Under the pieces are notes generated by a model. It saw nothing but the letters and a program-made list of their open reading frames with translations, ran no database searches and had not been told where the DNA came from. DNA of 64,000 nucleotides from Candidatus Rifleibacterium amylolyticum (GTDB lineage: Bacteria; Muiribacteriota; Ozemobacteria; Ozemobacterales; Ozemobacteraceae). The position numbers and the translations under genes are program-made. The number at the start of each line of letters is the position of its first letter. The first letter of the stretch is position 1. This document shows, piece by piece, positions 17,742 to 49,533 of the stretch. Where the stretch lies: NCBI GenBank assembly GCA_009917695.1, contig JAACJG010000002.1, positions 186,001 through 250,000 on the forward strand, written 5' to 3'.

Positions 17742-17775
17742 GGAGTCCTCCGTGTACCTTTCAATAAGTGGCGTG

Positions 17776-18040: not shown

Positions 18041-18177
18041 AATCCGTCCTCCCTTCCACTGACACTGCCTTATCGGCAAATTCCCTGATTTGCCTGACCT
18101 AAAAACTGGCAGCTGGTAAATTTTTGTGCGATAATGCGATACGATTAAGCAACATAAGAAAACAAAGGGTTCGGTAT

Positions 18178-18828: not shown

Positions 18829-18956
18829 TGGCTGCAATCAGCCTGCTCACGGTTCAGTCAGCAGTCCGACGGATTTTGTTTACAAACTGTGTACACAAGA
18901 TTAAAATTCGTTCAGATTCGGTTGATCCGAATATGTTTTACACACGGGAGACAGAC

Positions 18957-19382
18957 ATGAAGATCAAAGTTCTGTTGGTTACGCTTTTGATGATGGCTTT
19001 AACTGGTGCGGTTTTTGCAGGTGTAATGCCTTCGGCAGAAGAACTTGGGGTCATCGACGCCATGATTGACAAGATGATGGCAGGTTACAACGCCAGCGAT
19101 GCCACGGCATTTTATGCAGACTGGGCGACCATGATGGCGGCGATATGCACTCCTCAGGCTTTTCAGACGCTGTATGTAGACAATTATATGAAAACTTTCG
19201 GAGCTTATGCTTCGCGAACGGTCAATGCCGATGAAACCGTGGTAATGCCTGATGTTCCGAATGGCCTGGTAGTATACACTGCCAAATTCGCCAACAATGA
19301 AAATGTAAAAATGAGTGTCAACCTGATGAAAGAAGATAATGTCTGGAAAATCCAGCAACTGACCATTCAGGCCATGCCCTGA
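18957..19382 (+). CDS. Exported NTF2-like/DUF3887-like protein
   Basis: A 141-residue protein from the ATG at 18957, with GGGAG upstream; a longer frame exists but is out of character. Residues 1-21 are a signal peptide (IKVLLVTLLMMALTGAVFAG). The mature part begins with a helix (AMIDKMMAGYNASDATAFYA), then FGAYASRTVNADETVVMPDV, ending VNLMKEDNVWKIQQLTI. That pattern matches small periplasmic NTF2-like/DUF3887 domains, which bind ligands or partners through a cone-shaped pocket. No enzymatic residues can be assigned. A weak terminator follows. Confidence 0.6.
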   Translation: MKIKVLLVTLLMMALTGAVFAGVMPSAEELGVIDAMIDKMMAGYNASDATAFYADWATMMAAICTPQAFQTLYVDNYMKTFGAYASRTVNADETVVMPDVPNGLVVYTAKFANNENVKMSVNLMKEDNVWKIQQLTIQAMP

Positions 19383-19403
19383 TCGATTGTTGATCTCAGA
19401 CAG

Positions 19404-19433
19404 ACCGGTCGGCGCTTAGGCAGACCGGTTTTT
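19404..19433 (+). terminator. Possible terminator before pyruvate kinase
   Basis: Two copies of the self-complementary ACCGGT (19404-19409 and 19424-19429) can pair across a 14-nt loop and are followed by TTTTTCTGT. The stem is only 6 bp, so this is tentative. Confidence 0.4.
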
Positions 19434-19525
19434 CTGTGCAAAAATTGCGCAGTATTTCTGGCATATTTTTTGCTGCAAAACTGCCGCTATTCACAAATGA
19501 TACAGGAAAGGCATTCAGGCAAACT

Positions 19526-22359: not shown

Positions 22360-23919
22360 ATGGCAAGACAATATGACAATCAGCCCAAAAGCATGGGCTG
22401 CGGCACAATAATCGGTCTCATTCTGTTGTTTTTTCTGACCCTGGCTGACAGATTTGAGGATAAACGTGAAAAAAGCAAACAGGCAGCAAATGTTCAGTTG
22501 GCATCTGGAAGAATCGATGCGGCAACCAGCCAGATTGCGCGGCAAAGTGATGAGAACCTGATGCGATCCTATGGTCCCAAATCAGCTGACTATGAACTCG
22601 ACGCAAAAACTGGACGCACACTTTTGCACATGCTTTGCACGCTCAATCGACATCAAGTCCTCAAAAGCATGCTGGAAGGAGGCGCTTCGCCGAACCCTCG
22701 CGATTTTCGCAAAGAAACGCCCATGCATGTAGCTTTACAGAGAAAAAGCAGTGAATGTGTCGATCTGCTGTTAAAGCACGGAGCCGATCTGACCGCGGTT
22801 GACAATAAAAACTATTCGATTCTGCATGCTGCATCTGAATTCGGCTATTACGAGGTAGCCAAAGAAGCATTAAGAGCTGGCGCTGATATCGAAGCAGTAG
22901 CCTACGATTTTACTCCCCTGCATTGGGCCTGTTTCCGCGGCCAACTGCGTCTCGCCGTTCTGCTCTGTGAAAATGGGGCAAACACATCAACCTATGGCAA
23001 AGGCTGGACACCTGGTGATCTTGCCTTCGGCAAGCATCCTGAAATCGTAAGCTATCTGGCCAGTCGCAACGCACCCTTCAGTCAAGGTTTTCTGGTCGAA
23101 CACTATGACCTCAAAGATGGCTGGCCCTTTTTGAGCGAGTATGAAATTATCGCCATGTCTGGTGATCATCCGGCAATGCAGGCAGTGCGCAATGATTCGC
23201 CAGAACAACTTGAAGAGCTTAACGGTCAGATGATCGAGCTCGACATCAGCAACAAAGCCGACACGCCTCTTCTCATCGTTGCGATTGCCAATCGCAAAAA
23301 TTTGGCGGCAAAATATCTGGCCGGATACACAAAAAAGCTCAACGCCTGCGACACAAACGGCAAAAATGCTTTGATGTATTCTCTTGAAAAGGGCAGTAAA
23401 GACATCAGCCGCATCCTGCTAAAACGTGGCATAAAGCTCGATCATCTTGACACAGGCGGCAACAGTGCCCTGCATTACGCAATCGCGACTCTTGACAACG
23501 ATATCGTAGCTGAAATGATCGAAAAAGGTGCCGACATTTTTGCCGTAAACTATTTTGCCCGAGGCATGATGCACGTTGCTGCAGAAAATTCCAACGAAGT
23601 TATTTTTGCGACACTTATTGCGAATGGTTGTGACGTGAACCAGGAAGACATCAGAGGCAACACCGCACTGCACCTGGCTGCCCAGGCCAACAATCTGACC
23701 ATTCTAAGAGCTCTTTTAACCAACGGTGCCGATTTTGCGGTAAGAAACATGCAGGGAAAAGTTGCAGCCGATCTCGCCACCAGCCACGAAGCTTCTCAGC
23801 TGCTGCGCAACCGTTTTGAGATCGAGGGCTCCAACCCGGCGACCCGCGAACTCCCGGCCGAAGTACGCACTATGACTGTGCCAACCAGCGAGCTGGTCGA
23901 ACAGAGAAATGCCAGATAA
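22360..23919 (+). CDS. Membrane-anchored ankyrin-repeat protein heading the cyclase operon
   Basis: A 519-residue protein with GAGGTGAACGC before its ATG. One membrane span lies at about residues 15-30 (GTIIGLILLFFLTLADRF). From about residue 85 onward it is ankyrin repeats. Examples are TGRTLLHMLCTLNRHQVLKS, ETPMHVALQRKSSECVDLLL, YDFTPLHWACFRGQLRLAVL and GNTALHLAAQANNLTILRAL, roughly nine to ten copies interrupted by a less regular stretch around 235-280. Ankyrin repeats bind other proteins. Charge flanking the span is ambiguous, so I cannot say which side of the membrane the repeats face. The gene overlaps the first cyclase gene by 11 nt, so a physical link to the cyclases is plausible. Confidence 0.85.
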   Translation: MARQYDNQPKSMGCGTIIGLILLFFLTLADRFEDKREKSKQAANVQLASGRIDAATSQIARQSDENLMRSYGPKSADYELDAKTGRTLLHMLCTLNRHQVLKSMLEGGASPNPRDFRKETPMHVALQRKSSECVDLLLKHGADLTAVDNKNYSILHAASEFGYYEVAKEALRAGADIEAVAYDFTPLHWACFRGQLRLAVLLCENGANTSTYGKGWTPGDLAFGKHPEIVSYLASRNAPFSQGFLVEHYDLKDGWPFLSEYEIIAMSGDHPAMQAVRNDSPEQLEELNGQMIELDISNKADTPLLIVAIANRKNLAAKYLAGYTKKLNACDTNGKNALMYSLEKGSKDISRILLKRGIKLDHLDTGGNSALHYAIATLDNDIVAEMIEKGADIFAVNYFARGMMHVAAENSNEVIFATLIANGCDVNQEDIRGNTALHLAAQANNLTILRALLTNGADFAVRNMQGKVAADLATSHEASQLLRNRFEIEGSNPATRELPAEVRTMTVPTSELVEQRNAR

Positions 23920-26908: not shown

Positions 26909-29891
26909 CACTAAGGTAGAATCATCTCGACAGCTGAAAATCGGGCGCAGCATGTTTCTCAGGCTGGCCCCGGTGATGCTGTGGATATTGGCAATCTGCC
27001 TGCCAATGCTTATTGGCAGCCGCGTTTACTTTATCTCTCTCAGACAGAGACGAATTGATATTGCCGATCAGGCGAGGCAGCAACTGATGGCAAAGGCTCA
27101 GCAACTATCCTTCAGACTTCAGCCCAAAACCATTGCCAGAAATTTTTTCGAGATTGAAAACTATGACTGGCACTTTGCTAACTACCGCTATAACTCAGTA
27201 AAAAATGTATTCGAAAATCTGCCGGTGGTTAAATCACTGCCGGACTTCGATAAAAGCATTGACAGCGAGTTGGTTCGATTCAGCAGATACATCGAAGCTA
27301 ATTTCAAATTTGCGCCTGAGTTTTTGTTTGCGCTCGACGAAAATGTAGAAGATTGTGGCATACTTGTATCGAAACGCCTCGATCTTCTGGATGACGAACG
27401 GCTTGCACTGCGGGAAGAACTTTCCGAAATCTGCAAAAGGTTGAACTACACAGCAATCTTCGCAGATCAGACGCCGAGAGAATTGAGACACTACAAGGAT
27501 TTTCCAGTCTTCAATAAATTACTGGGTATCGCTCATCCTTTTAACACACGAGCCTGGCGAATCGATGGCAGATTTTCGGCAAAACTTAATCAGAACATTT
27601 ATCTGGTAACCATGTGCTGTCCGCTACTGAACAATCGGCAAAATCATGTGCTTATGGGGTTTACCATCGACAACATCAGGCAGGACATCATACTCGATCG
27701 ACTCTGCGACTCGCTCAGTGATGAGTTTATCAGCCTGAAGTCCGGCCTGTCAGCTGAACACAATTTTCCGCTTTTTATCGGACAGGGTGATAAAGTCGAA
27801 ATGTTGACCAGATTACCAGTTGCTTTTGAACAGCTTTTCAGCGCAAAAATGAACAAAAAGACAGATAAAAAGACGGTGATCAAACTTACTGCCAACACCA
27901 AAGCTTCTGACCGACAATTCGAACTGGCTATAGACAAAGTCAAGATTGTGCTCTTTATTCTGGCCGGCATCAGCCTGCTGATCGCGGTCAGCCTCTCGAT
28001 GGGAAGAATTGAAGTCAAAGCGGGCCTGACCGGAATAATAGCAACGAGTTTTGTCGCCTGCATGGCCTTTCCACTGTCTGCAATATTCTGGCAGGGTTTG
28101 TTGCAATACCATTCGAATAGAGAAAGCGACACCCAGCAAGTCATGCATAAGATCTCGCGTAATATCAGAGAACTCGATCAGAGCTTTCTGCTGCAAAGTT
28201 ATCGTCGCATGCTGCTGCTCAAATTCATCGCTGCAGGTTTTGAGCGACTGCCCATGCCTGCCTGGGGGCGCATGGCCAGGCTTATGTTTTCTGACCAGGC
28301 AGAAGACCGCTTTTCAAATCATTTTAGAACTTATTATCTCTACGATGCCCTCGATCGCGAATTTTACCGTGGTCAGGTTAAAACCGAAAATCAGGTCATA
28401 AGCGAGATGTCGCGCCTTTTCGTAGGTGTTTCACGCAAGCTGATGATGCAGATTGGAGCGATGTCGGGCCTGAGCGAAAATGACCGCAACCGGATAGGGC
28501 AGATCGCCGATTTTGCATCAGGTCTGATGGAGCAGCTTATGCGACCAAAATTGCTGAATCAGATTTATAAAACCCAGGGCGAGCTTTTTATGAGTGACTT
28601 TATGGCCAGGCGTTCTTTACTCTGCAGTCATTTTCTCAAAGCCGCCGGAAAAATCGTAGGATTCATGATTTTTGTGACTGAGAACTATCAGTTGATGGAA
28701 CTCATTGGCGAGATGCAGCAGGAAGGCCTTTTCCCTTCACGGCTGGCGGTTGATGATTACGATGTTGAACTGGTTTTCTACCCGATCGATGATTATGCTG
28801 AGCGTGGACTCAAAAGTCGCATAGCTTACAGCGACAAAAACAGCGTATCTCAGAATGACGGTTTTAAGGAAATTGCAAACTCTCTGTATGCTGGCGCTGA
28901 CTTCAATCAGATAAACAATCTGCACCTGAAAGACCCGCATCTGATAGTTACCGACAAAATCTTCGAAAACAATGTATTTGTATTTGCACTGGCAAGGCCG
29001 GTAAAAAGCCGTCATCAAGTTCCCTGGCCCCTGATTGCTTTAACGCTGGTTGCAGTCACAAGTTGTCTGACTCTGGCGGCTGGCGTAGCTAGAATGTTAC
29101 TGATGCAGATTCCCCCGTTTCTCTTCGCCATGCGACAGATAGAAAACGACAGATACGACTGGCAACTTGCTCTGCCCGGCAGCGATGAGTTTGCTGAGCT
29201 CGCTGTATCGATCAATTCGATGCGGGTCAGTCTGCTCGAGCGAAAGAAAATGATGCAGCTGGTTTCGGCCAACGCGATCGAAGCGGCTCAATCAGACCTT
29301 AAACAGCAAAGCCGGGCAAAACGGCGCGAAGCGGCGATTCTTTTTTGCGATATCAGAAGCTTTACCACAATAAGCGAAAGCAGGTCTGCCGAAGAAGTTG
29401 TCGAAATGCTCAACCATTACTTTTCGCGCATGTGCCCGATCATTGAGGCTCAGGGCGGATTTGTCGACAAACTCATCGGCGATGCCATTCAGGCCGTATT
29501 TTACGGCGATGCAGCGACAGCCGTTCTGACTGCCGCAAAATGCGCAGTGCAGATGCGGGTAAGCCTCGGCGATTTTAATCAACAACGAGTAAACCAGGGG
29601 CTGTTTACCATAGATAACGGCATTGGCATAGCAGCCGGAACAGTGATAACCGGGCTGGTCGGCTCGCAGACCGGCAAACTCGACGCCGCACTGCTCGGCA
29701 ACGTATTGCAAAAAGCTCAGAAACTTGAAGCACAAAGCAAACATGCTGTTGACAGCAAAATCCTGCTCGATCACGAAAGCTGGCAAAAGGTCAGAGACAA
29801 AATTATCGTCAGAACGTTCAGCGATCCTTCTTCTACCGAATCGCCAGGTAAATGTCTGTATGAACTGGTAAAAATCAAAGAAACGACATGA
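26886..29891 (+). CDS. Membrane class III nucleotide cyclase, C1-like half (pair 1, partner B)
   Basis: A 1001-residue protein with the same plan as its neighbour: spans at about 27-46, 354-373, 376-402 and 714-738, HAMP-like linker, and cyclase domain about 814-985. Both metal aspartates are present (Asp822 in ILFCDIRSFTT, Asp866 in DKLIGDAIQAVF), as is Lys862. The opposite half of the site is lost. Where YTVIGDxVNLAARLE is expected it reads AALLGNVLQKAQKLE, so Thr is Ala935, Asn is Gln942 and Arg is Lys946. On its own it should not be able to stabilise the transition state. It complements the preceding gene product exactly. An ATG 66 nt downstream is an alternative start. Confidence 0.9.
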   Translation: MSSSPTDNTKVESSRQLKIGRSMFLRLAPVMLWILAICLPMLIGSRVYFISLRQRRIDIADQARQQLMAKAQQLSFRLQPKTIARNFFEIENYDWHFANYRYNSVKNVFENLPVVKSLPDFDKSIDSELVRFSRYIEANFKFAPEFLFALDENVEDCGILVSKRLDLLDDERLALREELSEICKRLNYTAIFADQTPRELRHYKDFPVFNKLLGIAHPFNTRAWRIDGRFSAKLNQNIYLVTMCCPLLNNRQNHVLMGFTIDNIRQDIILDRLCDSLSDEFISLKSGLSAEHNFPLFIGQGDKVEMLTRLPVAFEQLFSAKMNKKTDKKTVIKLTANTKASDRQFELAIDKVKIVLFILAGISLLIAVSLSMGRIEVKAGLTGIIATSFVACMAFPLSAIFWQGLLQYHSNRESDTQQVMHKISRNIRELDQSFLLQSYRRMLLLKFIAAGFERLPMPAWGRMARLMFSDQAEDRFSNHFRTYYLYDALDREFYRGQVKTENQVISEMSRLFVGVSRKLMMQIGAMSGLSENDRNRIGQIADFASGLMEQLMRPKLLNQIYKTQGELFMSDFMARRSLLCSHFLKAAGKIVGFMIFVTENYQLMELIGEMQQEGLFPSRLAVDDYDVELVFYPIDDYAERGLKSRIAYSDKNSVSQNDGFKEIANSLYAGADFNQINNLHLKDPHLIVTDKIFENNVFVFALARPVKSRHQVPWPLIALTLVAVTSCLTLAAGVARMLLMQIPPFLFAMRQIENDRYDWQLALPGSDEFAELAVSINSMRVSLLERKKMMQLVSANAIEAAQSDLKQQSRAKRREAAILFCDIRSFTTISESRSAEEVVEMLNHYFSRMCPIIEAQGGFVDKLIGDAIQAVFYGDAATAVLTAAKCAVQMRVSLGDFNQQRVNQGLFTIDNGIGIAAGTVITGLVGSQTGKLDAALLGNVLQKAQKLEAQSKHAVDSKILLDHESWQKVRDKIIVRTFSDPSSTESPGKCLYELVKIKETT

Positions 29892-29904
29892 CAAAAAAAG
29901 CTTT

Positions 29905-32835
29905 ATGAAAACCATCAGACCAGAAAGACTTTCGAATACCAGACTTTTTGTGTTCTGGCTGATCGTTTTTGTGCTGCCACTGATAACTGCCAGAATACTG
30001 GTTAATCTGCATGCCAACCAGCTGACGCAAACCGAAGAGAGCGATCTCAGAACAGCCCTGCGCCAGGAAATGAGTCTCTATCTAACCGACCTCGAGCTCA
30101 GCAGCCAGATTGAAAAACAGATAAAAAAGGTTGAACGACTGCTCGCAAGTGAGCTTGCCGCGAGCGCCAAACCTTATGATGCAAAAAATATCTGCGGCCT
30201 CTCACAGCGTTTTTTCGAAGAAACCGGCATATTCATGCCGGCGCTGATCGCGGCTTATATTCCAGAAAGCAGAGAAACCGAGATATTGCGCATAAATACC
30301 GATTCTCTCAATCCCGGGCGCAAGTCGCTCGAGATAATTCTGACTTATCTCAACGATCTGACCAATAACTCAAACGCTGAAAACCAGGCCAGGCTCTATC
30401 AGCAGATCTGCCGGTCTGCCTTTGGCGAGTTGCTGCAACCGGCCAGGCAACCAGGTCTTCTGGTCAGTGGTTTTTTGAGCAAAGGCCGTGGCGACCGTGC
30501 CTTTGTTTATCACAACAGTATCGAAATCCGCAGAAATGGGAAAAAATTCATTTTGTTTGCAGTATTTGCTGAAGCTGAAACTGGACTCAAGGAACTGCTG
30601 AATCTGGCCAGGCAACAGAACAGCAGCCCTGCAATCACCAGAAGCTTCGCGATGATGAGCACCGCGGCTGACCGCGACTTTTTTTTCGACCGCCACAACA
30701 ACCTGAGTTACGCTGTACCGATACCTCCGGCAGTCTTACGAACTGGCTCGCATGCTGGCAAAGACTGGTATTCCAACATCTTCGCAACGAACAAGGCATT
30801 AGAGAAACCTGCCCGACTGCCTTTTGCCGTGGTAACTCACCAGCCAGAAACCTCCAGACAAAAGAATGTTTCCGGGAATGATCTCGCCAATCTTTTACTG
30901 CTGGCATTCTTTTTCATCGGCACGGCACTCGTTCATCAGATCGCAACTCTCCGCTTCGCCCGGGCACCGATCAACCGCAAGTTTGCCCTTTGTATCATGC
31001 TTTCGACAGTTCTGCCATTTTCAGTATTGATCGTATCTGCATACCGTTACACGAGGCATTTCAGCCTGAGCATGATTCAAAACCGCCTGCACCAGATGGG
31101 GAACGAGCTATACCTCATCGAAGCAAACATTCACAGCCACTCCCAGCGCAAAAGATTCAACATCTACACATTTCTCAAGCGTTTGCAGAACAGCTCACAC
31201 CTTTCATCAACAAGGCTCAGACAGATGCTCGACGATGAATTCGGCCGACTCTACATCGGCTATATGTTTTTCCGCAACGATGCGACTCTGATCGAGCGAT
31301 TGCCCGATACGAGAACAGCCAGCAGTGACGACCGCAGCAAATTACTTCTGATGCGGGACCTTACCCTGGCGCAGTTTTACGATGTTTTTGTCCACTCCTC
31401 AGCACTTGCCAGAAATTTTGCCGAAAACAGCGCGATGATTCCAGACTTCAAGCGCTGGCGTGCATTTTCAGTGCATTACAATCCAATTGACCGGAACTCA
31501 TTCTCGATACAGGATGGAGAGAATTTTCCGGTGAAAATCTCAGAGCGGCAATACATAGAGTATTCCACTCACAACCTGTTCAGTAATCCTTCGGCAAAAG
31601 CGGTGTGGGCAGGTCTTATTCTGCTGGTCGATGCACACGCAACCGCCGAAAACTATCTGAACCAGCTGCCAGGGCATACTTTTACCCGAACTCATGGCGA
31701 CTCGCTGACCCATACCGCCATATTTCGCCTGAATACGCAGGAGCAGATCGACCGGCAGATCGCCTGGCCCCGCAACGCCCTTTCCGACAACCTGATGCTG
31801 CAAACCGCCATGAGTCTGGCTTCAGGAAAAACAGAATCGGCATGGTACAGCTTCGACAAAACCGGTGCCGTAAACCTGTTCTGCGCCAGGGCCGTTTCTG
31901 ACACGCCTTTTGTTGTTGTTTCACGCGGCGAACTGACGGTTACCAACGTAATCGAAGCCTTTCTACCGGTGCTTCTGCTGCTGGTAATAATTTATCTGCT
32001 GGCACTGACCAAGCTGCTGAGCCTGATTCTTGCCGAAAGCTTCATCAAGCCGGTCAACCTCATGCTTGACGGCCTGACTGCGCTGGATAAAGGCTTTTAT
32101 CCGGTTGTCGCCTGTGACTCTGCCAATGAGCTGGGCAGCCTGGTCGGCGATTTCAACGACATGGTCGAAGGCATGCGGCAACGGCGAATTCTCGAACGCT
32201 TTATATCAGACGAAGTTTCGCAGACAGTTGCCGAGAGTGCTTCAGACCCCGACAAGCTTGCCGGCAACCTGGTGCATCGCGCAATCATGCTCATTCATAT
32301 CCATAATTTTGATGAGCTGTGCGAAAAACTCGAGCCGGAATCAGTTATTGCACTGCTCAATATTTACTTCAGCAAACTTGAACCTGCTGTTACCTCGCAG
32401 GGTGGGCAGATCGACAAATACATCGGCGATGCCATAATGGTAAGCTTTGCCGGCGAGCGCTGCGGTGGGAAGCCTGAACTGGCCGCCTGTATGACCTCTT
32501 TGCAATGCCGCGGCAAAATGCCTGAAATCATGGCCAGATTAGCAGAAAGAGGGCTGCCGGCGATAGTTATCGGCACAGGAATCGCCGCCGGCACGGTAAT
32601 TCTCGGCAAAATCGGTGCGCGCAACGGGCGCAAGGATTTTACTCTGATCGGCGACGCAGTGAATCTGGCCGCAAGGCTTGAGAGCGCATCGCGATTCGAT
32701 GGCAGACCGCATATTCTGATTTCTGAAAGTGTCAGAACAGCTGCGGCGAACATTCGCTGCAAGCCGCATGCCCGGCTCAAGGTCAAAGGCAAAGAAAATG
32801 CAGTTGAAGTCTTTGAACTGGAGGAAATCGCCTGA
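29905..32835 (+). CDS. Membrane class III nucleotide cyclase, C2-like half (pair 2, partner A)
   Basis: A 976-residue paralogue of the protein at 23909. Spans lie at about 14-33, 328-349, 360-383 and 683-710, followed by a HAMP-like linker (LGSLVGDFNDMVEGMRQRR) and the cyclase domain from about 792. The first metal ligand is again His (His798 in IMLIHIHNF). Kept residues are Lys838 and Asp842 (DKYIGDAIMVSF) and Thr913, Asn920 and Arg924 (FTLIGDAVNLAARLE). The same Asp-to-His change in both paralogues argues for a kept feature, not random decay. The 13-nt gap to the gene before it contrasts with the 1-nt overlap to its partner downstream. Confidence 0.9.
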   Translation: MKTIRPERLSNTRLFVFWLIVFVLPLITARILVNLHANQLTQTEESDLRTALRQEMSLYLTDLELSSQIEKQIKKVERLLASELAASAKPYDAKNICGLSQRFFEETGIFMPALIAAYIPESRETEILRINTDSLNPGRKSLEIILTYLNDLTNNSNAENQARLYQQICRSAFGELLQPARQPGLLVSGFLSKGRGDRAFVYHNSIEIRRNGKKFILFAVFAEAETGLKELLNLARQQNSSPAITRSFAMMSTAADRDFFFDRHNNLSYAVPIPPAVLRTGSHAGKDWYSNIFATNKALEKPARLPFAVVTHQPETSRQKNVSGNDLANLLLLAFFFIGTALVHQIATLRFARAPINRKFALCIMLSTVLPFSVLIVSAYRYTRHFSLSMIQNRLHQMGNELYLIEANIHSHSQRKRFNIYTFLKRLQNSSHLSSTRLRQMLDDEFGRLYIGYMFFRNDATLIERLPDTRTASSDDRSKLLLMRDLTLAQFYDVFVHSSALARNFAENSAMIPDFKRWRAFSVHYNPIDRNSFSIQDGENFPVKISERQYIEYSTHNLFSNPSAKAVWAGLILLVDAHATAENYLNQLPGHTFTRTHGDSLTHTAIFRLNTQEQIDRQIAWPRNALSDNLMLQTAMSLASGKTESAWYSFDKTGAVNLFCARAVSDTPFVVVSRGELTVTNVIEAFLPVLLLLVIIYLLALTKLLSLILAESFIKPVNLMLDGLTALDKGFYPVVACDSANELGSLVGDFNDMVEGMRQRRILERFISDEVSQTVAESASDPDKLAGNLVHRAIMLIHIHNFDELCEKLEPESVIALLNIYFSKLEPAVTSQGGQIDKYIGDAIMVSFAGERCGGKPELAACMTSLQCRGKMPEIMARLAERGLPAIVIGTGIAAGTVILGKIGARNGRKDFTLIGDAVNLAARLESASRFDGRPHILISESVRTAAANIRCKPHARLKVKGKENAVEVFELEEIA

Positions 32836-35816
32836 TGCAGCGCATTTACATCAGTTCAAAACCAGGCCGGCTGACAAGATACGCACCGCTGCTGCTATGG
32901 TTCATGGCAGTGCTTTTACCACTTTTTGCCGCCAGGTTGATTTTCAGTTCTGCCATAAAAATGGAAAACGATCTCTATCGCTCACGCATGCAGCAGAAGC
33001 TCAGAGTAGAACTGCAGAAATATGATACTGCACTTCACCCCGGGAATTTCTTGAGCGATGCAATTGCGAGAAGCGCAAGCGAACAAATCATGCGGAACTG
33101 GATAAACGGCCGGGAATATAGCGCCGATTACCGCACTCATCCTGTTCTCAGCCATTTGCCGGCGATGTTTGCCTCAGACTCTTCGACGATCGAAAATTTT
33201 GTTGAACTCAGCCAGCGCCTGACAGGAATGAGCCCTCAGATTGTTTTCGTCATCTCTGAACAGGAAAAAGACTGCCAGTGGAGCCTGAAATCGCCGTTCG
33301 ATGTACCAGAAGATGATGCCGCTGTAAAACGAGAGCTTGCCGGAGTCTGGCAGATAATGGAAATGCGCAACAGCTTTGGCAAACGGCCAGTGCCGGCAGA
33401 ATACGATGTTCTCGAAAATTTCCCTATATTTGACAGGGTATTGGGTCTTCTACAGCCGTTAAAGACTTCTTATGGCTCGATTATCGAACGCTACTCTTCC
33501 CAGGCCCGAGATGTAGTCTATCTGACCTGCCTGCCAGTTCCTGCCGGCATTACCGGAAAGGCTAACCGCTATATCATGGCGGGATTCTGCCGGTCGGCCT
33601 TTTCTACTCAATTCATGCTCGAAAAAACCACGAAAAGCTTTACAAAATCAGGTTTCAGCCACCGGGCAGCATTGTCTTCAGAAAAGATACTGCCTGCCTT
33701 CAAAGAAACTGATGAGCTGATGGTGCTTACCGGTCAGGTTCCAATGCTTTTTGCCAGGCTCTTTGCAGAAGTTAAGCTGCCACCGGGCCATCAACCGGCA
33801 ATCAGCATCAGCTGCCCCAGACTTTCGCCAGATGCAAAGGCAAAAAACAATCTGGTTGAACTGCTGCTGAAACTGGTGGCAGTATTATCTTTCATGCTAC
33901 CGGTGGCGGCGATGCTTGGGCGCATTGGCACCGCGGCCAAATTGTACAAACTGGTGCGCGCCTGTTTTTTGATCGGTATTCTGCTGCCCCTGGCAGCTTC
34001 TGTCTGGCTCGGCATCTGCCACATCAATTCAAAAAAACAGCTGGAAACCGAGCAGCTGCTTGATTTTATGCAGAATCAGCTGACTCTGACGGAACAGAAA
34101 ATACTTTTGCAGCAATCGCGCAGTGTTCTGTTTCAGAATATTTTCGCAGAAAGCGCCGGCAACCTGACTGCCGAAAGATTGCGCCAGCTGAATCAGATTA
34201 CCAGATACGTCAGTACCATGCCAAAAAACAAGAACCTGATAGATGTCTGCCCACGCATGAACAGACGGTTTTACACATACTTTTTCGTTCATCCTGAAAT
34301 CGATGGCGATATAATCGGCCTGGCATCAGGCCAGGGGCAGGCGGCCGGAACTCTCAATCCTGTTTTTTCAAGTCCCGCCCGTGAAGTTCTGTTTCAGCTT
34401 GGAGCCTACAAAAGGATGTCTGGCGACAAGGCTCGCAACCTGCTGCAGAAATCGCAACTGACCATGGGTCTAATCGATGTCGCCATCGACCTCAAATTGT
34501 TATCAAGAACATTCGCCGAAGAACGCTCGCCTGTTTTCAACAGCATGACGACGGGCAGAGAATGCATCACCAGCATTTTCTGGAAAAACCGCAAGCACGA
34601 AAAATCCGGGATCATTTTCCTGCAGTCGAATCGCGAAGGCTGGAAAAATGAAATTCTCGAACTGATCGAAGAGGGACTTTTGCAGACGGTTTTTCACCAG
34701 AATGGCTACGAAATCACGCTGCATGTTTACTTTCCAAATCCTCATCGACAGAGAGTTCTCGACAATGACGCGCACGAAGTTGTCGCCCGCTTTGCACCTG
34801 ATAAAAAAAGCCTGTGGGAGAGTGCTCAGGCGATGTTTCTAGTCTCAAAAACTTCACGCATCAACAACCTTGATTCAGATAAGCCGCACCTGCTGACCGG
34901 GCTGGAGGTAATCAAAGGCGATGCCTATCTTATGGCGCACGCAGTGCCAGTTCCCGGCATCCATCTGATCAGCGATGCAGCTATTTATCTGCTTCTCCTG
35001 CTGTTAGTCGTTATCAGCAGCTATTACCTCGCCGGCGGTGTTGCCTGGGTGCTGTTACGCTCGATTCCGGCTTTTCAGGCATCGATGCAGGAAATGGCAG
35101 AGCAGAATTTTCGCTGGCAGATAGAATTGAACAGCGGCGACGAGTTTGACAGGCTCGCGCACACTTTCAACCATCTTGGCCGCCAGCTTTACGAGAAACA
35201 GCAGATCAGCCAGCTGGTGTCACGCAACGTTCTCGACGTCATAAACTCAGGTGACGATCTGATGCTGCGTCCTGGCGGCAGCCGGGTAACCGCTTCGATA
35301 CTCTTTGCCGATATCCGCGGCTTCACGACTCTCACCGAAAAACACCAGCCCCAACAGATCGTATCGATGCTCAACGATTACTTTTCGCTGATGGCCGAGC
35401 AGATCGAGAGCCGCGGTGGCATCATCGACAAGTTGATTGGCGATGCTATTCAGGCGGTTTTTTATCATCATGAATGCGAAAATGGGGCTGAAGCCGCGGT
35501 AAAAGCCGGGATGGCCATGCGAGAAGCGTTGCCGGCATTCAATAAGCTTCGACAGCAACAGGGACTGTTCACGATCGACAATGGCGTTGGCATCTGCACC
35601 GGCAGCGTTATCTGCGGGCGCGTGGGTTCAGAACAGGGCAAACTCGATGCAACGCTGGTCGGCAGTCTGGTCGGTCAGGCAGCTCAGCTCGAAAGCATGA
35701 GCAAAGCCGGAGCCAGCAGTAAAGTGTTCATCGACCAGGCTACCGCAAAAATGCTTGGCAAATACCTGAACTGCCATCCCGTAGCCGCACAGAGCAACGT
35801 TTTTGAAGTGGCTTAG
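32835..35816 (+). CDS. Membrane class III nucleotide cyclase, C1-like half (pair 2, partner B)
   Basis: A 993-residue paralogue of the protein at 26886. Its ATG overlaps the previous stop (TGATG) and has GGAGG upstream, so translation is coupled to its partner. Spans lie at about 17-38, 338-362, 372-396 and 710-742, then a HAMP-like linker and the cyclase domain from about 818. The metal aspartates are present (Asp826 in ILFADIRGFTTL, Asp870 in DKLIGDAIQAVF), with Lys866 and Thr940. The transition-state pair is lost: Asn is Gly947 and Arg is Gln951 in ATLVGSLVGQAAQLE. It shares GLFTIDNG and the GKLDA segment with the other B partner, showing that the pairs arose by duplication. Confidence 0.9.
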   Translation: MQRIYISSKPGRLTRYAPLLLWFMAVLLPLFAARLIFSSAIKMENDLYRSRMQQKLRVELQKYDTALHPGNFLSDAIARSASEQIMRNWINGREYSADYRTHPVLSHLPAMFASDSSTIENFVELSQRLTGMSPQIVFVISEQEKDCQWSLKSPFDVPEDDAAVKRELAGVWQIMEMRNSFGKRPVPAEYDVLENFPIFDRVLGLLQPLKTSYGSIIERYSSQARDVVYLTCLPVPAGITGKANRYIMAGFCRSAFSTQFMLEKTTKSFTKSGFSHRAALSSEKILPAFKETDELMVLTGQVPMLFARLFAEVKLPPGHQPAISISCPRLSPDAKAKNNLVELLLKLVAVLSFMLPVAAMLGRIGTAAKLYKLVRACFLIGILLPLAASVWLGICHINSKKQLETEQLLDFMQNQLTLTEQKILLQQSRSVLFQNIFAESAGNLTAERLRQLNQITRYVSTMPKNKNLIDVCPRMNRRFYTYFFVHPEIDGDIIGLASGQGQAAGTLNPVFSSPAREVLFQLGAYKRMSGDKARNLLQKSQLTMGLIDVAIDLKLLSRTFAEERSPVFNSMTTGRECITSIFWKNRKHEKSGIIFLQSNREGWKNEILELIEEGLLQTVFHQNGYEITLHVYFPNPHRQRVLDNDAHEVVARFAPDKKSLWESAQAMFLVSKTSRINNLDSDKPHLLTGLEVIKGDAYLMAHAVPVPGIHLISDAAIYLLLLLLVVISSYYLAGGVAWVLLRSIPAFQASMQEMAEQNFRWQIELNSGDEFDRLAHTFNHLGRQLYEKQQISQLVSRNVLDVINSGDDLMLRPGGSRVTASILFADIRGFTTLTEKHQPQQIVSMLNDYFSLMAEQIESRGGIIDKLIGDAIQAVFYHHECENGAEAAVKAGMAMREALPAFNKLRQQQGLFTIDNGVGICTGSVICGRVGSEQGKLDATLVGSLVGQAAQLESMSKAGASSKVFIDQATAKMLGKYLNCHPVAAQSNVFEVA

Positions 35817-42576: not shown

Positions 42577-43611
42577 ATGTACAGATTTTTTAAAAAGTTT
42601 TTTTCGACGACGATGATTTTGTCCTGCCTGCAATTGATCATTGTCAGCGCGACTCTGGCGGATGATTCATTTTCACTCAGGCCAGTCAGACCACCAGCAT
42701 TCAAACGCCTGTCACGGCTGCTGGAAAAGGCACAAAGCTCACCACTGCTTAATACTGTCGATACGCTGATGAGACTCTCAGGCATCTATGAAATTGCTGC
42801 TGCATGCAGTAATCCGCGAATCGTCATACTTCCCCCGGCTGTCAGGGCAGATCGAGCATCATCTGACAATACCGGATCGATAAGAATACTCAGCGCAAAT
42901 CTGCTGCTGTTCCCGGCCCCGGTGGTTTTAGATCAGGAACAGCGAATCGCTGAGTTTGCAAAATGCGTGCGCAGCCTCAACCCAGATATAATACTCACCC
43001 AGGAAGTCTGGGATAACAAAAGTCTTGGCCTGTTGATTGCAGCTCTACCCGACTATTATTCAATCTTCTCACCTGGCATAGGCTATAATCATTCAGGTTT
43101 GCTGACATTGTGCAGATTCGCCCCAGAAACATGCATAATGCGGCGTTTTCCGACGTCTTTGCAACATTCACTTGAAGAATTCATGGCACAAAAAAGCATT
43201 CTTCAGACATCGCTCAGATATGATGGACAGATTCTGCATTTGTTCAACACTCATCTGTATTCAGCGGCACCGCACAAGAGATACCGTCCCAACCTCAGAC
43301 AATTCAAGTTGTTGGCAGACATTGTTGATAATCTATCAGGTCGAACCATTGTCGGCGGTGACATGAACCTGCTGCCAGCTGATCTCAAAATTCTCTTGCC
43401 GGAAAGTCTGCGGCTCGAAGGCTGCAATCTGCCAACAGCCGGCTACCCAAATCTCAAGAGAAAACTCGATTACATACTGGCGGGCAACAGATCAGGCCAG
43501 ACCGTCATATCAGGCAGGCGAATAGATCCGCCGCGACGTTTTTCCGACCATAATCCGGTATTTGCCAAAATCAAATTTCTTGACAAAAAAGACATCACAC
43601 GACCAGATTGA
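42577..43611 (+). CDS. Exported endonuclease/exonuclease/phosphatase-family protein
   Basis: A 344-residue protein. Residues 1-28 look like a signal peptide (MILSCLQLIIVSATLADD). The EEP catalytic set is complete and in order: RILSANLL (Asn), ILTQEVW (metal Glu), LFNTHLYS (catalytic His), VGGDMNLLP (Asp and Asn) and FSDHNPVFA (Asp-His pair). Members cut DNA, phosphoinositides or sphingomyelin. With a secretion signal, an extracytoplasmic nuclease or lipid phosphodiesterase is plausible. A TATAAT box at 42525-42530 may belong to its promoter; the -35 is unclear. Its 3' end overlaps the convergent cyclase gene by 17 nt. Confidence 0.8.
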   Translation: MYRFFKKFFSTTMILSCLQLIIVSATLADDSFSLRPVRPPAFKRLSRLLEKAQSSPLLNTVDTLMRLSGIYEIAAACSNPRIVILPPAVRADRASSDNTGSIRILSANLLLFPAPVVLDQEQRIAEFAKCVRSLNPDIILTQEVWDNKSLGLLIAALPDYYSIFSPGIGYNHSGLLTLCRFAPETCIMRRFPTSLQHSLEEFMAQKSILQTSLRYDGQILHLFNTHLYSAAPHKRYRPNLRQFKLLADIVDNLSGRTIVGGDMNLLPADLKILLPESLRLEGCNLPTAGYPNLKRKLDYILAGNRSGQTVISGRRIDPPRRFSDHNPVFAKIKFLDKKDITRPD

Positions 43612-46600
43612 AAACTTCCACTTCCTGTTTTTTACCACGGATTCTTTCGATGGAAACCGGCTTTACAGGATAACTTGAGCCCAGGCAGTCCCTTACGGCA
43701 CCAGAAATTATAATCGGCATGGATTCGCTGTTTGCCAGCGAACACATACGTGCAGCAACGTTTACCGGGTCGCCGATAACGGTATTGTCGATACGAACTT
43801 CTGGGGTGCCAATTATACCAGAGATTACCCGGCCGGAATTGATGCCAAAAACCGGCTTGATATCAGGGTCTGCCTTGAAATCATGCAGAATACGTTTCGC
43901 CAGCTTTATAGCCGCAACAGCAGCATTCTTTTTGCCATGTCGTTCGTGCGAAAATACTATCAGCAGCTTTTCACCAACCACTTTGTCAACTTCCCCACCA
44001 TATTCATCAGCATAGCGGAAAAATCTCTCAAGGCTGAATTCAAGCTTGCGCTGAACCGCCTTCTCATCGGCTGTCGTAGCGAATTCGCTAAAACCATCAA
44101 AATCTGCAAATAGTATGGTAAACTTGGCCTCACTGCCCTGGCGCGCTTTTTCGAATAGTTCAGGATTGCTGGCCAGACGTCGGACAGATTCAGACACGAA
44201 GCTGCCAAGAGCGTTTCGCTCGCGCAAGCCTTTGACCATGCGATTAAACGCCCGTGAAATAGAGCCAAATTCGTCTTCACGACTGTCTTTAAGTTTTACT
44301 TCATAATTGCCGGCTTCGATACAGTTGAGACCCCAGAGAAGATGCTCCAGTGGCCCGGTAAACGATCTGCTGATATTGATCGCTGCCAGCACGGCAAAAA
44401 TCAGAAACACAATCAATCCAGACATGAAAATCACACTGCGCCAGAATTCGATGCGGTCGAGATATGAAGTATCCTGCCGACCACCCACCGTATATAACCC
44501 GAGATACCTGCCGGGAAGCGCCTGATATATAGCTTTTTCATCGCCCGTTCCCACATATCTGGTAATGCGCCGATTGCGAGAAGCGCTTCTTATCAATGTA
44601 GACAACCTTGGCGATTCGGTATCCTGCGAGAAAAACGACTCGGCCCGAAATCCGCTGAAGGCCTGCACCAGAACTGGGTCTGCCGCAATAAAGGCCGCCG
44701 GGTCAAAAATGTCGAGCAATGAAACCAGCTTTCTGCTGTCATTGTTTACATTTATGATTTCGGCAAAAGCATTCTTGAGATATGACTCGCCAATTGCGTA
44801 TTCATCCCAGCCAACCCCGCAGAAGTACTCGATCAGACCACCTATGCGCAGCGGAAAAACTGTAAACAGGGTTGTACCAACGCTTGTTCGCATGCTGCTG
44901 AGCCCCTCGAGCCGCGAAAAAATTTCGTAAAAACGCTCGTTGCCAAAAGAGGTTATGATGTGTTTTTTGATCTCATCATACATGGCCTTTTCAATTGCCT
45001 CTGCTGAAGCAGTTTTTTTACTTTCCAGCAGTCCCGGGACAAATTCATCGCGCGCAAAAAACTTCTCAATGGTTTTACGATACATATTGAGCAGCATAAA
45101 CATTGAATCATTGCGAGATTCGGCGCTATGTCCAACAACTTCACGTTTAAAGCGATCGTAATAGCGAAGAAAACCATTTGGCCCCATTACCAGTATTGCA
45201 TTGGCACGGCGCCCAGGATCACCAGAGGTTTTATAACTACTTATAAATGGCGCAAAAGCTCTTTCAGCAATATTAAGAACATCCTGGTCATGAGCCTTAA
45301 GATCAATATTCGCTCTTTCTGCTGGCGAATTCTCGTAAAGAGCCTGCTGCTCTCTTGCTTCTTTCAGTGAACGAATAGTATCCGGATGTGCGAAAGATTT
45401 TAAGAAACTCTGAAACAGATTGGCATTGTAAAGACGTATGCCAGAATCAATACCGGTTAAAGTATTGTGCAGATTACGCTCTATTTTGAGCCTCTCGCTC
45501 GCAGAAGCCTCACGCAATATCAGTTGAAATATCGAGCGACCCATCATGAACGGCATGAATATAGCAAAGAGACTGGCCAGGATCAGAACCTTGCCAACGC
45601 TTAACTTAAGACCACGGCCAAAAACTACGGTCTGAACGAAGACAAGAAAGACCAGACAGACACCAGCAAAAGCCAGCAATCTGTAAATCTGAGTAGATCG
45701 CGCATCAGATAAACCCTGTAATCTTGCGATAACAACTGGAAAGAAAGGCGTTCCGGTAACTTCTCGACCGATGACCACAGCCAGACTGCCATGCCTGAAC
45801 ATCTCTGTGCGCATATGTCTGTTATTACCGGCCTTGCCAATGAAATCACGACAAACCTGATTGACATAATCTGTCTCTGATTTCTTTTTCGCTATCTGCA
45901 GGCTGTTTCCGGCAACGAATTCGCCGCTGCGGCCATCGAAAAAAGCAGCAGCAAAATTCCCGACAGACTCTGTTTCGGCAATGGTCTTAAAAACATGCAA
46001 AGCCGACATTTTATGCAAGTCGATACGACAGAAAAAATATACCAGCTGACCGTTGGCTACCGTCAGTTTATCCCAGTATACGCCAACACAGCGCTCTGCT
46101 GACCTGAAAGTTGCCATGCGACCAGCGCGCATCTGCATGAAAACGATCTTATCCACCGGATCACCGATATATTCATGCAACAAATCATCGCATTCCTTAC
46201 ACAATTCTTCATATTTCGGATTGAAAAAAACATCTTCTTTGTAATTGCGGGTTTTAAGATCATCAATGGCAAGAAATCTTGCCAGAAATTCTGGATTGGT
46301 TTCGCCTCGCAAATCTGCCGAATTCAGAAGGTTTCCCTTACCATCAGCGATAGCTATCGCAAGCGAGTATGGTGGCAGGCTTTTTTCAACGAAATCAGGG
46401 GCCCAGCCGTAACGAAACAGAGCCATGTGATTGTTCGAAACCAGATCGCGAAAACGACTGAAGGTATTTTGCACAGTCGAATAAATGTTGGCTTCCTGCC
46501 GCACCCGGTTATTGTATTGTATGGCCTGCACCATCTGATTCGTTGCCATGCGTTCATCGGTTACCAGCCGGCTTTCCAGGCGAAAAGCCAGAGCCAGAAT

Positions 46601-46645
46601 TGTAATGAAGATCATTGTAAAAAACAGACTTCTATGAAGGCTCAT
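43595..46645 (-). CDS. Membrane class III nucleotide cyclase, C2-like half (pair 3)
   Basis: A 1016-residue protein, second in its operon; the start overlaps the upstream stop by 4 nt (ATGA) and has GGAGG. Spans lie at about 7-24, 318-340, 352-368 and 736-756, then HAMP (SFTGPLEHLLWGLNCIEAGN) and the cyclase domain from about 840. Asp848 is present (ILFADFDGF), but the second metal ligand is Glu892 (DKVVGEKLLIVF in place of GD). Lys888, Thr955, Asn962 and Arg966 are intact (NTVIGDPVNVAARM). The Glu could still bind metal weakly, so activity alone is not excluded. It supplies exactly what its partner at 46642 lacks. Confidence 0.9.
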   Translation of the reverse strand: MSLHRSLFFTMIFITILALAFRLESRLVTDERMATNQMVQAIQYNNRVRQEANIYSTVQNTFSRFRDLVSNNHMALFRYGWAPDFVEKSLPPYSLAIAIADGKGNLLNSADLRGETNPEFLARFLAIDDLKTRNYKEDVFFNPKYEELCKECDDLLHEYIGDPVDKIVFMQMRAGRMATFRSAERCVGVYWDKLTVANGQLVYFFCRIDLHKMSALHVFKTIAETESVGNFAAAFFDGRSGEFVAGNSLQIAKKKSETDYVNQVCRDFIGKAGNNRHMRTEMFRHGSLAVVIGREVTGTPFFPVVIARLQGLSDARSTQIYRLLAFAGVCLVFLVFVQTVVFGRGLKLSVGKVLILASLFAIFMPFMMGRSIFQLILREASASERLKIERNLHNTLTGIDSGIRLYNANLFQSFLKSFAHPDTIRSLKEAREQQALYENSPAERANIDLKAHDQDVLNIAERAFAPFISSYKTSGDPGRRANAILVMGPNGFLRYYDRFKREVVGHSAESRNDSMFMLLNMYRKTIEKFFARDEFVPGLLESKKTASAEAIEKAMYDEIKKHIITSFGNERFYEIFSRLEGLSSMRTSVGTTLFTVFPLRIGGLIEYFCGVGWDEYAIGESYLKNAFAEIINVNNDSRKLVSLLDIFDPAAFIAADPVLVQAFSGFRAESFFSQDTESPRLSTLIRSASRNRRITRYVGTGDEKAIYQALPGRYLGLYTVGGRQDTSYLDRIEFWRSVIFMSGLIVFLIFAVLAAINISRSFTGPLEHLLWGLNCIEAGNYEVKLKDSREDEFGSISRAFNRMVKGLRERNALGSFVSESVRRLASNPELFEKARQGSEAKFTILFADFDGFSEFATTADEKAVQRKLEFSLERFFRYADEYGGEVDKVVGEKLLIVFSHERHGKKNAAVAAIKLAKRILHDFKADPDIKPVFGINSGRVISGIIGTPEVRIDNTVIGDPVNVAARMCSLANSESMPIIISGAVRDCLGSSYPVKPVSIERIRGKKQEVEVFNLVV

Positions 46646-49533
46646 AAGCTGCCTCCAGTTTTGCTTACCATTTCATACGCGTCTTCATCGTCGAGTTTGA
46701 CGTACGAGTAGCTGCCCCTGGTCAAGGCATGGACTTTATCTGAGACGATCACCTTTGAATAGCGGCCTCTTTTGGAAAAGGCCTCGAGTGTCTCTGCTTT
46801 GATGCGTGCTTCGCCAATGACAAGATACTCGTAACGACTTCCGGCTTTAACTGTGCCAGAAAGCAGATGCCCAACCTCTATGCCGACACCGAACGCATAA
46901 GCGAAACGCCCTTCTGCCACTCGTTGCCCGCAGATCTGACTTTGTTTTTCGATCATGGCAGAAGCGGCGTGCATTGCTGCTTCTGCTGCTTCACCCAAAC
47001 TTTCACCGTAAAAAATTGCGATTATGGCATCGCCAACAAACTGTTCGATCATTCCACCCTGTTTTTTGATACAGGCAGACATGGCGCTGAGATGCTCGTT
47101 CAGCATCGTAACAATTTCACGAACCGGATAACGCTCGCTGAGAGTCGTGAATGAACGGATATCCGAACAGAGTATCGCGCCAAAACGACCTTCCATAACC
47201 TTGTGGCCGGCTTTTTCATCCATGGCAACCTGCTGATCAAGAGAAGCTGAGACAAAACGACCAAGGTTTCGTCTTTCTCTGATTCCGTCAACCATCTTGT
47301 CGAAAGCCGTGCTGAGCCGGCCGAGCTCATCTTCACGATTCAATCTCAGCTGTTTTGAGTAATCTTCGGCCGAAATCTGCGTCAAACCGTTTTCTACATC
47401 GACCAGCGGCTTTACCAGATACTCTGCGGTCAGGCGTGAAATTAAAAAAACCGGGATCGCCATAAGAACGACCAGAAATGACAGAATCATTTCCTGCTGA
47501 TAGGCACGCAGGCGAAAGTTCTTGAAAAAAACCATGTTGGCAAGAATGAACGGCCCTGATTTAACACAGGGATGAACCACCATAAGATGGTCTTCGTTCT
47601 GCTCGGCCATGCTGGTCCGGTTTACAGCTGCCAGCTCGATAAGATGCCCGGCCCTGCTGCTTATAAGTCTTTCATCTCTGCTTCCGGCCGCCGGTAAAAT
47701 TATATTCGAGCGTGAACCTTTTATTTCAGCAATAGCATAAATATTGTCGGCAAAGATATTCTGCAAACTGATTACAGACTCGAGCAGATATTGTTTGAAT
47801 GCGCGTGAAATGCTTACTCTAAACATATACCAGTTGCGAACAAGGCCGTCTTTCAGCAAAAAATTCTGATAAACAAAATACTTTTCATCACTGAAATCAA
47901 CGAATTCAAGGTCGCCGCGATTAGAAAGGAAATAACGCATTACCTCTTTGCCACTGCGACCTCTGAACATTTGTAAATCAGGTTCTTCACCAGACATAAC
48001 CTGCGGTGAAATACTGAAACAGGCCTTTCTGATCCAGCCACCGTACATGTTAAATGTCGCCAGTTCGCGCGACTCTGAGAACTCGGAATCTGAAAACCTG
48101 TAGAGTCGAGATTCGATACTGGCAACGTCGGGAGGATAAAGATAGGCTGCATCGATTTTTAAACCGGCTTCAACAAATTTGCCAGGTAAAGCTGCCATGG
48201 CCGAGTCCCATTTATCTGCATTCCATTCGGTCAGCGATGAAATCCAGTCAGGATCGTTCTCCAATCGCGAGCAAAAATTGTGATACTCGGTCAGCAGCTC
48301 TTCTCCGGAGGTATCAGCTTCTTCCAGCTGCTGTACCGCATCTTTGATCGCTTCCTGTTCAATTCTGTAGGCCGAGGCATCAACATGAAAAAGCCCTGCT
48401 ACATAAAAAACCAGCAGCGGCAGAATACCGACAACCATAAAAGTCAAAGTCAGCCAGGCTTTAAGACTTATACCGACAGGATTACCACTGATCATTACTC
48501 TGGTGAACACAAGAATCCAGGCAGTATAGAAAAACAGACGAAGAACGAAGCTGAAAAATGGCTCACGATAATCACTAACCGGATTACCCCGGCTCATTAC
48601 CCAGATTTCGTAAGGCACGGCGTAATCAAGGAATTCGCGCATGATTCGAAGACCACGATAATTCACGAATTTTCCGGGGGGCAACTTGCGGTCACGACTG
48701 ACACCAGATTCTTCAAGCTCTTTTATGCAGAGCGCTATCCTGCTACGTTGTTCCTGGTTCAGATAATCATCATAAATTGGTGTGAGATCACGACTGGCAT
48801 GTCGCAAAGGCACAAGAACAGAGCTCACCGAACTGTAGCGCTGACCGAGGAGACTTCCGGCAAACCTCATTGATTCAACACGAGTCACTACTGATGGAGA
48901 AAAGATCATCATAAATATCAGCCGCTGGCCAGAAGGCATGGTTATACTGTCCCAGATCGTTAAAACTGATTTGCCCTCATAAACTGCCGCCGATATCTTG
49001 CCTGCCCGCGAGTTTCTGACAAGTTCAAAGTCGAGAACTTCGCCAAAAGCCCCGCGAACACTTGCATTGAGACTGTTCAACTCACTGCTTGCATAGCTGT
49101 CCTGAGGCTTACTCAAGCCATCGAGAATTCTTTTGAAAAATCTCTGCTTAACTCGTGTATAGCCATCGCCTTCGAACATCTTCACCGAATTTTTGCCGAC
49201 AACTCCGGCATAAATATGTTCTGGCATAAACTTTTTCGGGAAAAATCGTCTCATTTCATGCATGAATACTGCGCCATCGACCTGAGAGTCCTTGGCATAG
49301 CCGCCCAAACTCTTGTTCAGCAGAAAAAATCGCCTGGCGATCTGCATTTCAAGAGACCACAGCGATCTGTACAGCTGTAGATAGTTGCTCGCCAACTGTT
49401 CCCAGCGCGTAATTTCGCGCTCTTTATGAATATTGTTGCGTTGATGCTGGTTGTATTCCAGCAGACCAAATGGCAGCAAGGTCAAAACGAAAGCGAAAAT
49501 CAAAGGCAGAGCCATGCTCAGGCGTCGCTTCAT
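46642..49533 (-). CDS. Membrane class III nucleotide cyclase, C1-like half (pair 3)
   Basis: A 963-residue protein, first in the two-gene operon. Spans lie at about 5-25, 332-350, 359-381 and 681-702, with HAMP (LVKPLVDVENGLTQISAEDY) and a cyclase domain from about 785. Both metal aspartates are kept (Asp791 in ILCSDIRSFTTL, Asp835 in QFVGDAIIAIF). All four residues of the other half are lost: Lys is Gln831, Thr is Leu904, Asn is Ile911 and Arg is Thr915 (YLVIGEARIKAETLE). This is the most extreme of the six. A homodimer cannot be active by the known mechanism, but pairing with the next gene product would give one complete site. Confidence 0.9.
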   Translation of the reverse strand: MKRRLSMALPLIFAFVLTLLPFGLLEYNQHQRNNIHKEREITRWEQLASNYLQLYRSLWSLEMQIARRFFLLNKSLGGYAKDSQVDGAVFMHEMRRFFPKKFMPEHIYAGVVGKNSVKMFEGDGYTRVKQRFFKRILDGLSKPQDSYASSELNSLNASVRGAFGEVLDFELVRNSRAGKISAAVYEGKSVLTIWDSITMPSGQRLIFMMIFSPSVVTRVESMRFAGSLLGQRYSSVSSVLVPLRHASRDLTPIYDDYLNQEQRSRIALCIKELEESGVSRDRKLPPGKFVNYRGLRIMREFLDYAVPYEIWVMSRGNPVSDYREPFFSFVLRLFFYTAWILVFTRVMISGNPVGISLKAWLTLTFMVVGILPLLVFYVAGLFHVDASAYRIEQEAIKDAVQQLEEADTSGEELLTEYHNFCSRLENDPDWISSLTEWNADKWDSAMAALPGKFVEAGLKIDAAYLYPPDVASIESRLYRFSDSEFSESRELATFNMYGGWIRKACFSISPQVMSGEEPDLQMFRGRSGKEVMRYFLSNRGDLEFVDFSDEKYFVYQNFLLKDGLVRNWYMFRVSISRAFKQYLLESVISLQNIFADNIYAIAEIKGSRSNIILPAAGSRDERLISSRAGHLIELAAVNRTSMAEQNEDHLMVVHPCVKSGPFILANMVFFKNFRLRAYQQEMILSFLVVLMAIPVFLISRLTAEYLVKPLVDVENGLTQISAEDYSKQLRLNREDELGRLSTAFDKMVDGIRERRNLGRFVSASLDQQVAMDEKAGHKVMEGRFGAILCSDIRSFTTLSERYPVREIVTMLNEHLSAMSACIKKQGGMIEQFVGDAIIAIFYGESLGEAAEAAMHAASAMIEKQSQICGQRVAEGRFAYAFGVGIEVGHLLSGTVKAGSRYEYLVIGEARIKAETLEAFSKRGRYSKVIVSDKVHALTRGSYSYVKLDDEDAYEMVSKTGGSL

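Follow-up and report, generated by a model that had tools for sequence, protein, structure and literature searches.

The gene pair and its domain layout

In a 64,000-nucleotide stretch of the Candidatus Rifleibacterium amylolyticum genome (contig JAACJG010000002.1, positions 186,001 to 250,000; hereafter the window), two adjacent genes on the reverse strand encode proteins with a class III nucleotide cyclase domain. The genes are designated by their lower coordinates. The first gene of the pair, 46642 (46642–49533), encodes a protein of 963 residues, referred to below as the C1-like subunit, and the second, 43595 (43595–46645), encodes a C2-like subunit of 1016 residues. They share four bases (46642–46645, reverse strand), in which the stop codon of 46642 overlaps the ATG of 43595, an arrangement of the translational coupling type. 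Many of the related pairs described below show an overlap of this size as well.

Both subunits are built alike. In AlphaFold2 models (mean predicted local distance difference test score, pLDDT, of 84 for 46642 and 78 for 43595), each chain is made of a transmembrane (TM) segment, a first extracytoplasmic domain, two TM segments, a second extracytoplasmic domain, a fourth TM segment, a HAMP domain and a cyclase domain. Four hydrophobic peaks are found in 46642 (residues 7–25, 326–344, 363–381 and 683–701) and four TM peaks in 43595 (residues 3–21, 323–341, 350–368 and 738–756). The HAMP domains, detected with Pfam, span residues 704–753 of 46642 (47275–47424) and 758–809 of 43595 (44219–44374), and the cyclase domains, delimited with Pfam and alignments, span residues 786–950 (46684–47178) and 841–1012 (43610–44125), respectively, all on the reverse strand. 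Scores for Guanylate_cyc (PF00211) are 52.3 and 33.7 bits, above the curated cut-off of 21.9, and the models have the cyclase fold, which places both subunits among class III nucleotide cyclases; their Foldseek matches are CyaC, CyaB, Cya2 and OaPAC, in a full-model search dominated by the cyclase domain. Homology between the N-terminal (sensor) halves of the C1-like and C2-like subunits extends over their full length (hhalign, 99.6%). The same layout is found in solo cyclases of about 1000 residues encoded elsewhere in the genome (e.g., L040 and L041).

Division of the catalytic residues

Six columns were examined in the cyclase domains: metal site 1, base site 1, metal site 2, base site 2, transition-state Asn and transition-state Arg. 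They were placed by aligning the domains with solved cyclases, OaPAC and CyaB among them, and by aligning the 61 cyclase domains of the genome with one another. In that order, the C1-like subunit 46642 reads D791, Q831, D835, L904, I911 and T915 (DQDLIT), with both metal Asp residues kept. The C2-like subunit 43595 reads D848, K888, E892, T955, N962 and R966 (DKETNR), with all the base and transition-state residues present. An earlier note on this DNA, made from the sequence alone, had given the same letters and numbers for both subunits, and the alignments confirm them. Canonical bacterial homodimeric class III cyclases carry all six catalytic residues in each chain; this is the case neither for 46642 nor for 43595. 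To judge from their residues, however, the two chains together can complete one active site.

Complementary pairs in the genome and in the phylum

The genome of this Candidatus Riflebacteria member (5.39 Mb, 35 contigs) encodes 61 class III cyclase domains. Classification by the six sites assigned 36 of them to 18 adjacent, complementary pairs, each with one C1-like domain (both metal Asp kept, Asn and Arg lost) and one C2-like domain (Lys, Thr, Asn and Arg kept, metal Asp lost or altered). In five of these pairs, a single open reading frame of around 2000 codons contains both domains. Among the 25 unpaired domains, 23 are complete. The other two (C6:151854-152939 and C2:425002-426669) are mostly devoid of catalytic residues (ENYDRQ and ERGSAT) and may be pseudo-cyclases.

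Relatives were located by an alignment query over genome contigs, as a single-protein query gave no match. Those found are by name Candidatus Riflebacteria metagenome-assembled genomes, Ozemobacter among them, and some go under different labels, although contigs or synteny link them to genomes of the same family. Two genomes labelled Erysipelotrichia and Candidatus Methylomirabilis (L093 and L095) contain syntenic orthologs of the 43595/46642 locus and look like mislabelled Riflebacteria. Loci from outside the Riflebacteria that were retrieved with a C1-like search contained complete domains only; that search is biased to C1-like motifs, and does not show absence elsewhere. In total, 60 non-redundant pairs were gathered across the fetched loci of the phylum. 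In 57 of them the C1-like domain comes first; in the phylum, a separate family (f3) has C2-first pairs. A few C1-like or C2-like domains in the fetched loci lack a partner; most of these are found at the end of a contig or in a disrupted frame.

Conservation follows the division of labour. Both metal Asp residues are invariant in the C1-like domains of all 60 pairs, and the Lys, Thr, Asn and Arg sites of these domains are variable. Conversely, Lys, Thr, Asn and Arg are invariant in the 60 C2-like domains, where metal site 1 reads Gly, Ala, Ser, Gln, Asp, His and others. Exactly complementary invariant sets indicate constraint on the two halves of one active site, with neither chain whole, a pattern that one would not expect in decaying pseudo-enzymes. 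When C1-like and C2-like labels are dealt at random, the probability that all pairs are complementary is p = 3e-5 for the 18 pairs of the genome and p = 1e-17 for the 60 pairs, with shared descent ignored in both figures. Pairing by coincidence, which was part of the refuting observation named in the earlier note, is thus far from what is found.

Further support came from the comparison of trees. The C1 and C2 trees mirror each other, with a Mantel r of 0.82 for the 60 pairs and 0.80 for the 18 pairs of the genome; in both cases, none of 10,000–20,000 permutations reached the observed value. Because mirroring is detected inside one genome, speciation cannot be its cause. In addition, 15 of the 60 pairs are fused into proteins of about 2000–2500 residues with the order 4TM-C1-4TM-C2, and such proteins provide direct evidence that the partners work together. 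Fused cyclases of this kind, tmAC-like in their order (that is, like the transmembrane adenylyl cyclases of animals), include L033, L034 and L047 (on contigs C1 and C23 of the genome), L083-L088 and L115. They fall into two groups of the C2 tree, and fusion may have occurred twice. Finally, orthologs of 43595 and 46642 retain gene order, the 4-base overlap, complementarity and the flanking genes down to 36–40% identity. Altogether, residue invariance, mirrored trees and fusions strongly support the complementary division of labour that the earlier note had suggested for this pair.

A proposed heterodimeric receptor cyclase

We propose, with a probability of roughly 85%, that the products of 43595 and 46642 function only as a heterodimer: a receptor adenylate cyclase of the membrane that has a single active site and has converged on the eukaryotic transmembrane adenylyl cyclases (tmACs). 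The proposal draws on the complementary residues, the pairing and coupled order of the genes, the co-evolution of the partners and the natural fusion of homologous pairs. Each subunit would act as a sensor with four TM segments, two extracytoplasmic domains and a linking HAMP domain. D791 and D835 of the C1-like subunit would bind the metals; K888 and T955 of the C2-like subunit would select adenine, and its N962 and R966 would act on the transition state. The sole C1/C2 interface site would cyclise ATP, and recognition of adenine by the Lys/Thr couple would yield cyclic AMP (cAMP). The mirror-image second site would be dead because the C1-like subunit lacks Lys, Thr, Asn and Arg. Activation would proceed through the HAMP domains in response to signals from across the membrane, presumably two of them. 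Heterodimer formation, ATP as the substrate, cAMP as the product and two-signal sensing are all predictions from the sequence.

Possible targets of cAMP are found in the genome, which has only 19 matches to cyclic-nucleotide-binding domains as compared with 61 cyclase domains. One such match (C1:274142-274384) is located beside a cyclase pair (C1:275524-281369).

Two observations weigh against the proposal. The sensor halves do not match any Pfam domain in either subunit, and both metal sites of 43595 are acidic (Asp at site 1, Glu at site 2), so that its residues may be compatible with a weak homodimeric activity. In an alternative reading, homodimers of the C2-like subunit would be the active enzyme, with metal bound by Asp848 and Glu892, and 46642 would serve as a regulatory pseudo-cyclase partner. 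Certainly, 43595 carries Asp, Glu, Lys, Thr, Asn and Arg at the six sites, and D848 (codon GAT, 44102–44104, reverse strand) also occurs in each of the three further close orthologs that were examined (G001, G002 and G005). However, a syntenic ortholog in G012 has Ser at metal site 1 (AGT instead of GAT), and an ortholog from the same genus, in G004, carries Ala and Gly at sites 1 and 2, respectively. Asp is missing from site 1 in 56 of the 60 C2-like domains, and the four that have it are orthologs within the genus of the window. The variability of D848 among orthologs argues against a required role, and the existence of orthologs without D848 or E892 argues that solo activity of 43595 is not needed. 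Furthermore, D791 and D835 are invariant in the C1 partner, and a pseudo-cyclase would have no need for them. Hence, we view a homodimer of 43595 as improbable. Even less credible is the idea that both genes are degenerate, dead cyclases, kept as signalling scaffolds or nearing loss: each domain alone does lack essential residues, but those retained are exactly complementary and do not vary over the 60 pairs, and orthologs with 62–70% conservation have their frames and gene order intact.

The history of D848 was traced on the C2 tree. Domains with Asp form a clade (support 97/94) that stands beside the Ser-bearing ortholog (100/100), nested within a C2 clade otherwise free of Asp. Two changes, one loss and one regain, suffice to explain this distribution. 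D848 was therefore most likely regained, and the earlier statement that 43595 "keeps" the first metal Asp is better abandoned in view of the orthologs with Ser or Ala. Glu892 (codon at 43970–43972, reverse strand) was also considered as a special feature of the pair and rejected: metal site 2 of the 60 C2-like domains reads Asp in 31, Glu in 23, Asn in 4, His in 1 and Gln in 1.

One split or several

The window contains a related operon on the forward strand (23909–35816), made of C2-like (23909), C1-like (26886), C2-like (29905) and C1-like (32835) genes, and therefore C2-first. Both of its C2-like domains have His at metal site 1, as do all 12 C2 domains of this type in the tree. The His residue is kept in genomes of the same genus and of g8 (L186-L194), and may have a role of its own. 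Relative to this operon, the gene order of 46642 and 43595 is reversed, as the earlier note had remarked; among the pairs at large, C1-first is the majority order and the operon is the unusual one.

Whether the two types arose from one split was addressed with trees, and the answer depended on the part of the protein considered. When the six catalytic columns were masked, the cyclase domains still yielded one C1 clade and one C2 clade, with support values of 92 and 88, 98 and 88, and, with more C2-first pairs included, 41 and 93. The possibility that the clades are an artefact of the six catalytic letters was thus rejected. The backbone collapses, however, when wider motif regions are removed. 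The cyclase domain rejects a clade made of the window pair on its own (p = 6e-44), which indicates that the split predates the 43595/46642 pair and is common to its lineage. In turn, the cyclase domain does not reject independence of the 24–36 kb type (p = 0.33 and 0.29) or of f3 (p = 0.17), and it accepts a clade joining the C1 and C2 domains of this pair's lineage (p = 0.42).

A different picture emerges from the rest of the protein. Full-length and sensor-only trees join the C1 and C2 subunits of this pair's lineage (support 97 and 92), and the sensor halves reject monophyly of C1 (p = 7e-13) as well as of C2 (p = 1e-5). Sensor halves share only 10–13% identity, so that alignment error and long branches matter in these trees. 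The check suggested by the earlier note, whether C1-like and C2-like domains each form one clade, is thus answered in the affirmative by the cyclase domains, more weakly without the motif regions, and in the negative by the sensor halves.

Two histories may account for these observations, and both are compatible with the heterodimer. One is repeated origin: the lineage of this pair, with its fused proteins, and the 24–36 kb lineage would each have started from a duplicated complete cyclase whose copies lost complementary residues. We give this history an even chance. It agrees with the full-length and sensor trees, is tolerated by the cyclase domain, and fits the differences in gene order (C2-first in the 24–36 kb type and in f3) and in the replacements at the metal site. 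Against it, masked cyclase-domain trees put all C1 domains on one side of a branch and all C2 domains on the other, and the sensor identity between lineages is only about 10%, a level at which alignment error and long branches matter.

The other history, in which C1 and C2 split once and then drifted while the sensor halves of partners were homogenised, seems to us somewhat short of an even chance. It is favored by the cyclase-domain trees and by the consideration that partners must dimerise, which might couple the evolution of their sensors. However, support in the domain trees is weaker without the motif columns, and the sensor halves of partners are hardly closer to each other (13.0% identity) than those of non-partners of the same lineage (12.2%). 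The partner excess is almost nil and gives no sign of recent conversion, which speaks against homogenisation.

The earlier note had argued that this pair reached complementarity by a different route than the operon. The argument stands only in part: Glu892 and the C1-first order are ordinary, Asp848 was probably regained, and an independent split is backed by the sensor halves and weakly contradicted by the cyclase domains.

In either history, Riflebacteria would have evolved the division of labour separately from eukaryotes, starting from a duplicated cyclase of this layout that was complete and probably homodimeric. The fuller scenario, that Riflebacteria made a split-labour heterodimer from a homodimeric membrane receptor cyclase at least twice, and fused it at least once into a single 4TM-C1-4TM-C2 chain, we place a shade under even odds. 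If true, repeated splitting and fusion would constitute a surviving, multi-stage replay of the origin of animal membrane adenylyl cyclases, with many sensor pairs per cell. Riflebacteria contain the full series, from the complete solo enzyme through the tandem complementary pair to the fused protein; because the whole series exists in one phylum, the gain from linking or splitting a cyclase is directly testable. The pairs could also serve in engineering as heterodimeric two-input cAMP receptors.

Comparison with known cyclases

The Riflebacteria pair shares its catalytic fold and six-site chemistry with homodimeric bacterial membrane cyclases of class III (Rv1625c/Cya and the HAMP-linked receptor cyclases). 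Those enzymes, however, carry the six residues in each chain and form two sites, unlike 43595 or 46642. According to the 2022 review by Schultz, bacterial class III adenylyl cyclases homodimerise and fused dimeric bacterial species are unknown (PMC9552081); we found no description of heterodimeric or fused bacterial class III cyclases in the open-access literature.

Activity restricted to a heterodimer of homologous subunits is known in fungal rhodopsin-cyclases (NeoR; PMC8815786) and in animal soluble guanylate cyclase; these are, however, eukaryotic guanylate cyclases with other sensors. In the active site, a parallel is offered by soluble adenylyl cyclase (ADCY10), whose C1 (DKDLDL) and C2 (NKCTNR) domains display the same division of labour. 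In ADCY10 the domains are adjacent in one soluble chain without TM segments or HAMP, whereas the Riflebacteria pair has TM segments and HAMP in two chains. Kinship between the two was rejected, as they occupy different places in the tree. Forms predicted to be soluble and fused, like AC10, exist in bacteria too: L172 and L173 (genome G029, from family f7 of the same phylum as the pair) are proteins of 1411 and 1530 residues with two adjacent split-labour cyclase domains, the match to AC10 having been tested for L173 only.

A further likeness is to the tmACs (ADCY1-9, class IIIa pseudoheterodimers). These have two homologous membrane halves, a C1 domain with both metal Asp residues and without Asn and Arg, and a C2 domain with Lys, Asn and Arg and without metal Asp. 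In the same columns, C1 of AC5 reads DKDDTH and C2 of AC2 and AC5 reads SKSDNR; the Ser at metal site 1 is also found in several Riflebacteria C2 domains. The pair shows the tmAC distribution of residues, with metal Asp in C1 and base and transition-state residues in C2, and the fused Riflebacteria form has the same membrane-C1-membrane-C2 order. The differences lie in architecture and in the adenine site. The pair is encoded by two separate genes, and a single polypeptide is found only in the fused minority of related pairs; each half has four TM segments, two large extracytoplasmic domains and HAMP, as opposed to the six TM segments (hexahelical) of tmACs; and the adenine site has Thr instead of Asp. 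Common descent was rejected, as AC5_C1, AC5_C2 and AC2_C2 form a separate clade in a quick tree (support 98). Class III chemistry and the tmAC-like division of labour are therefore known; what is new here is a bacterial receptor family that is differently built and separately evolved.

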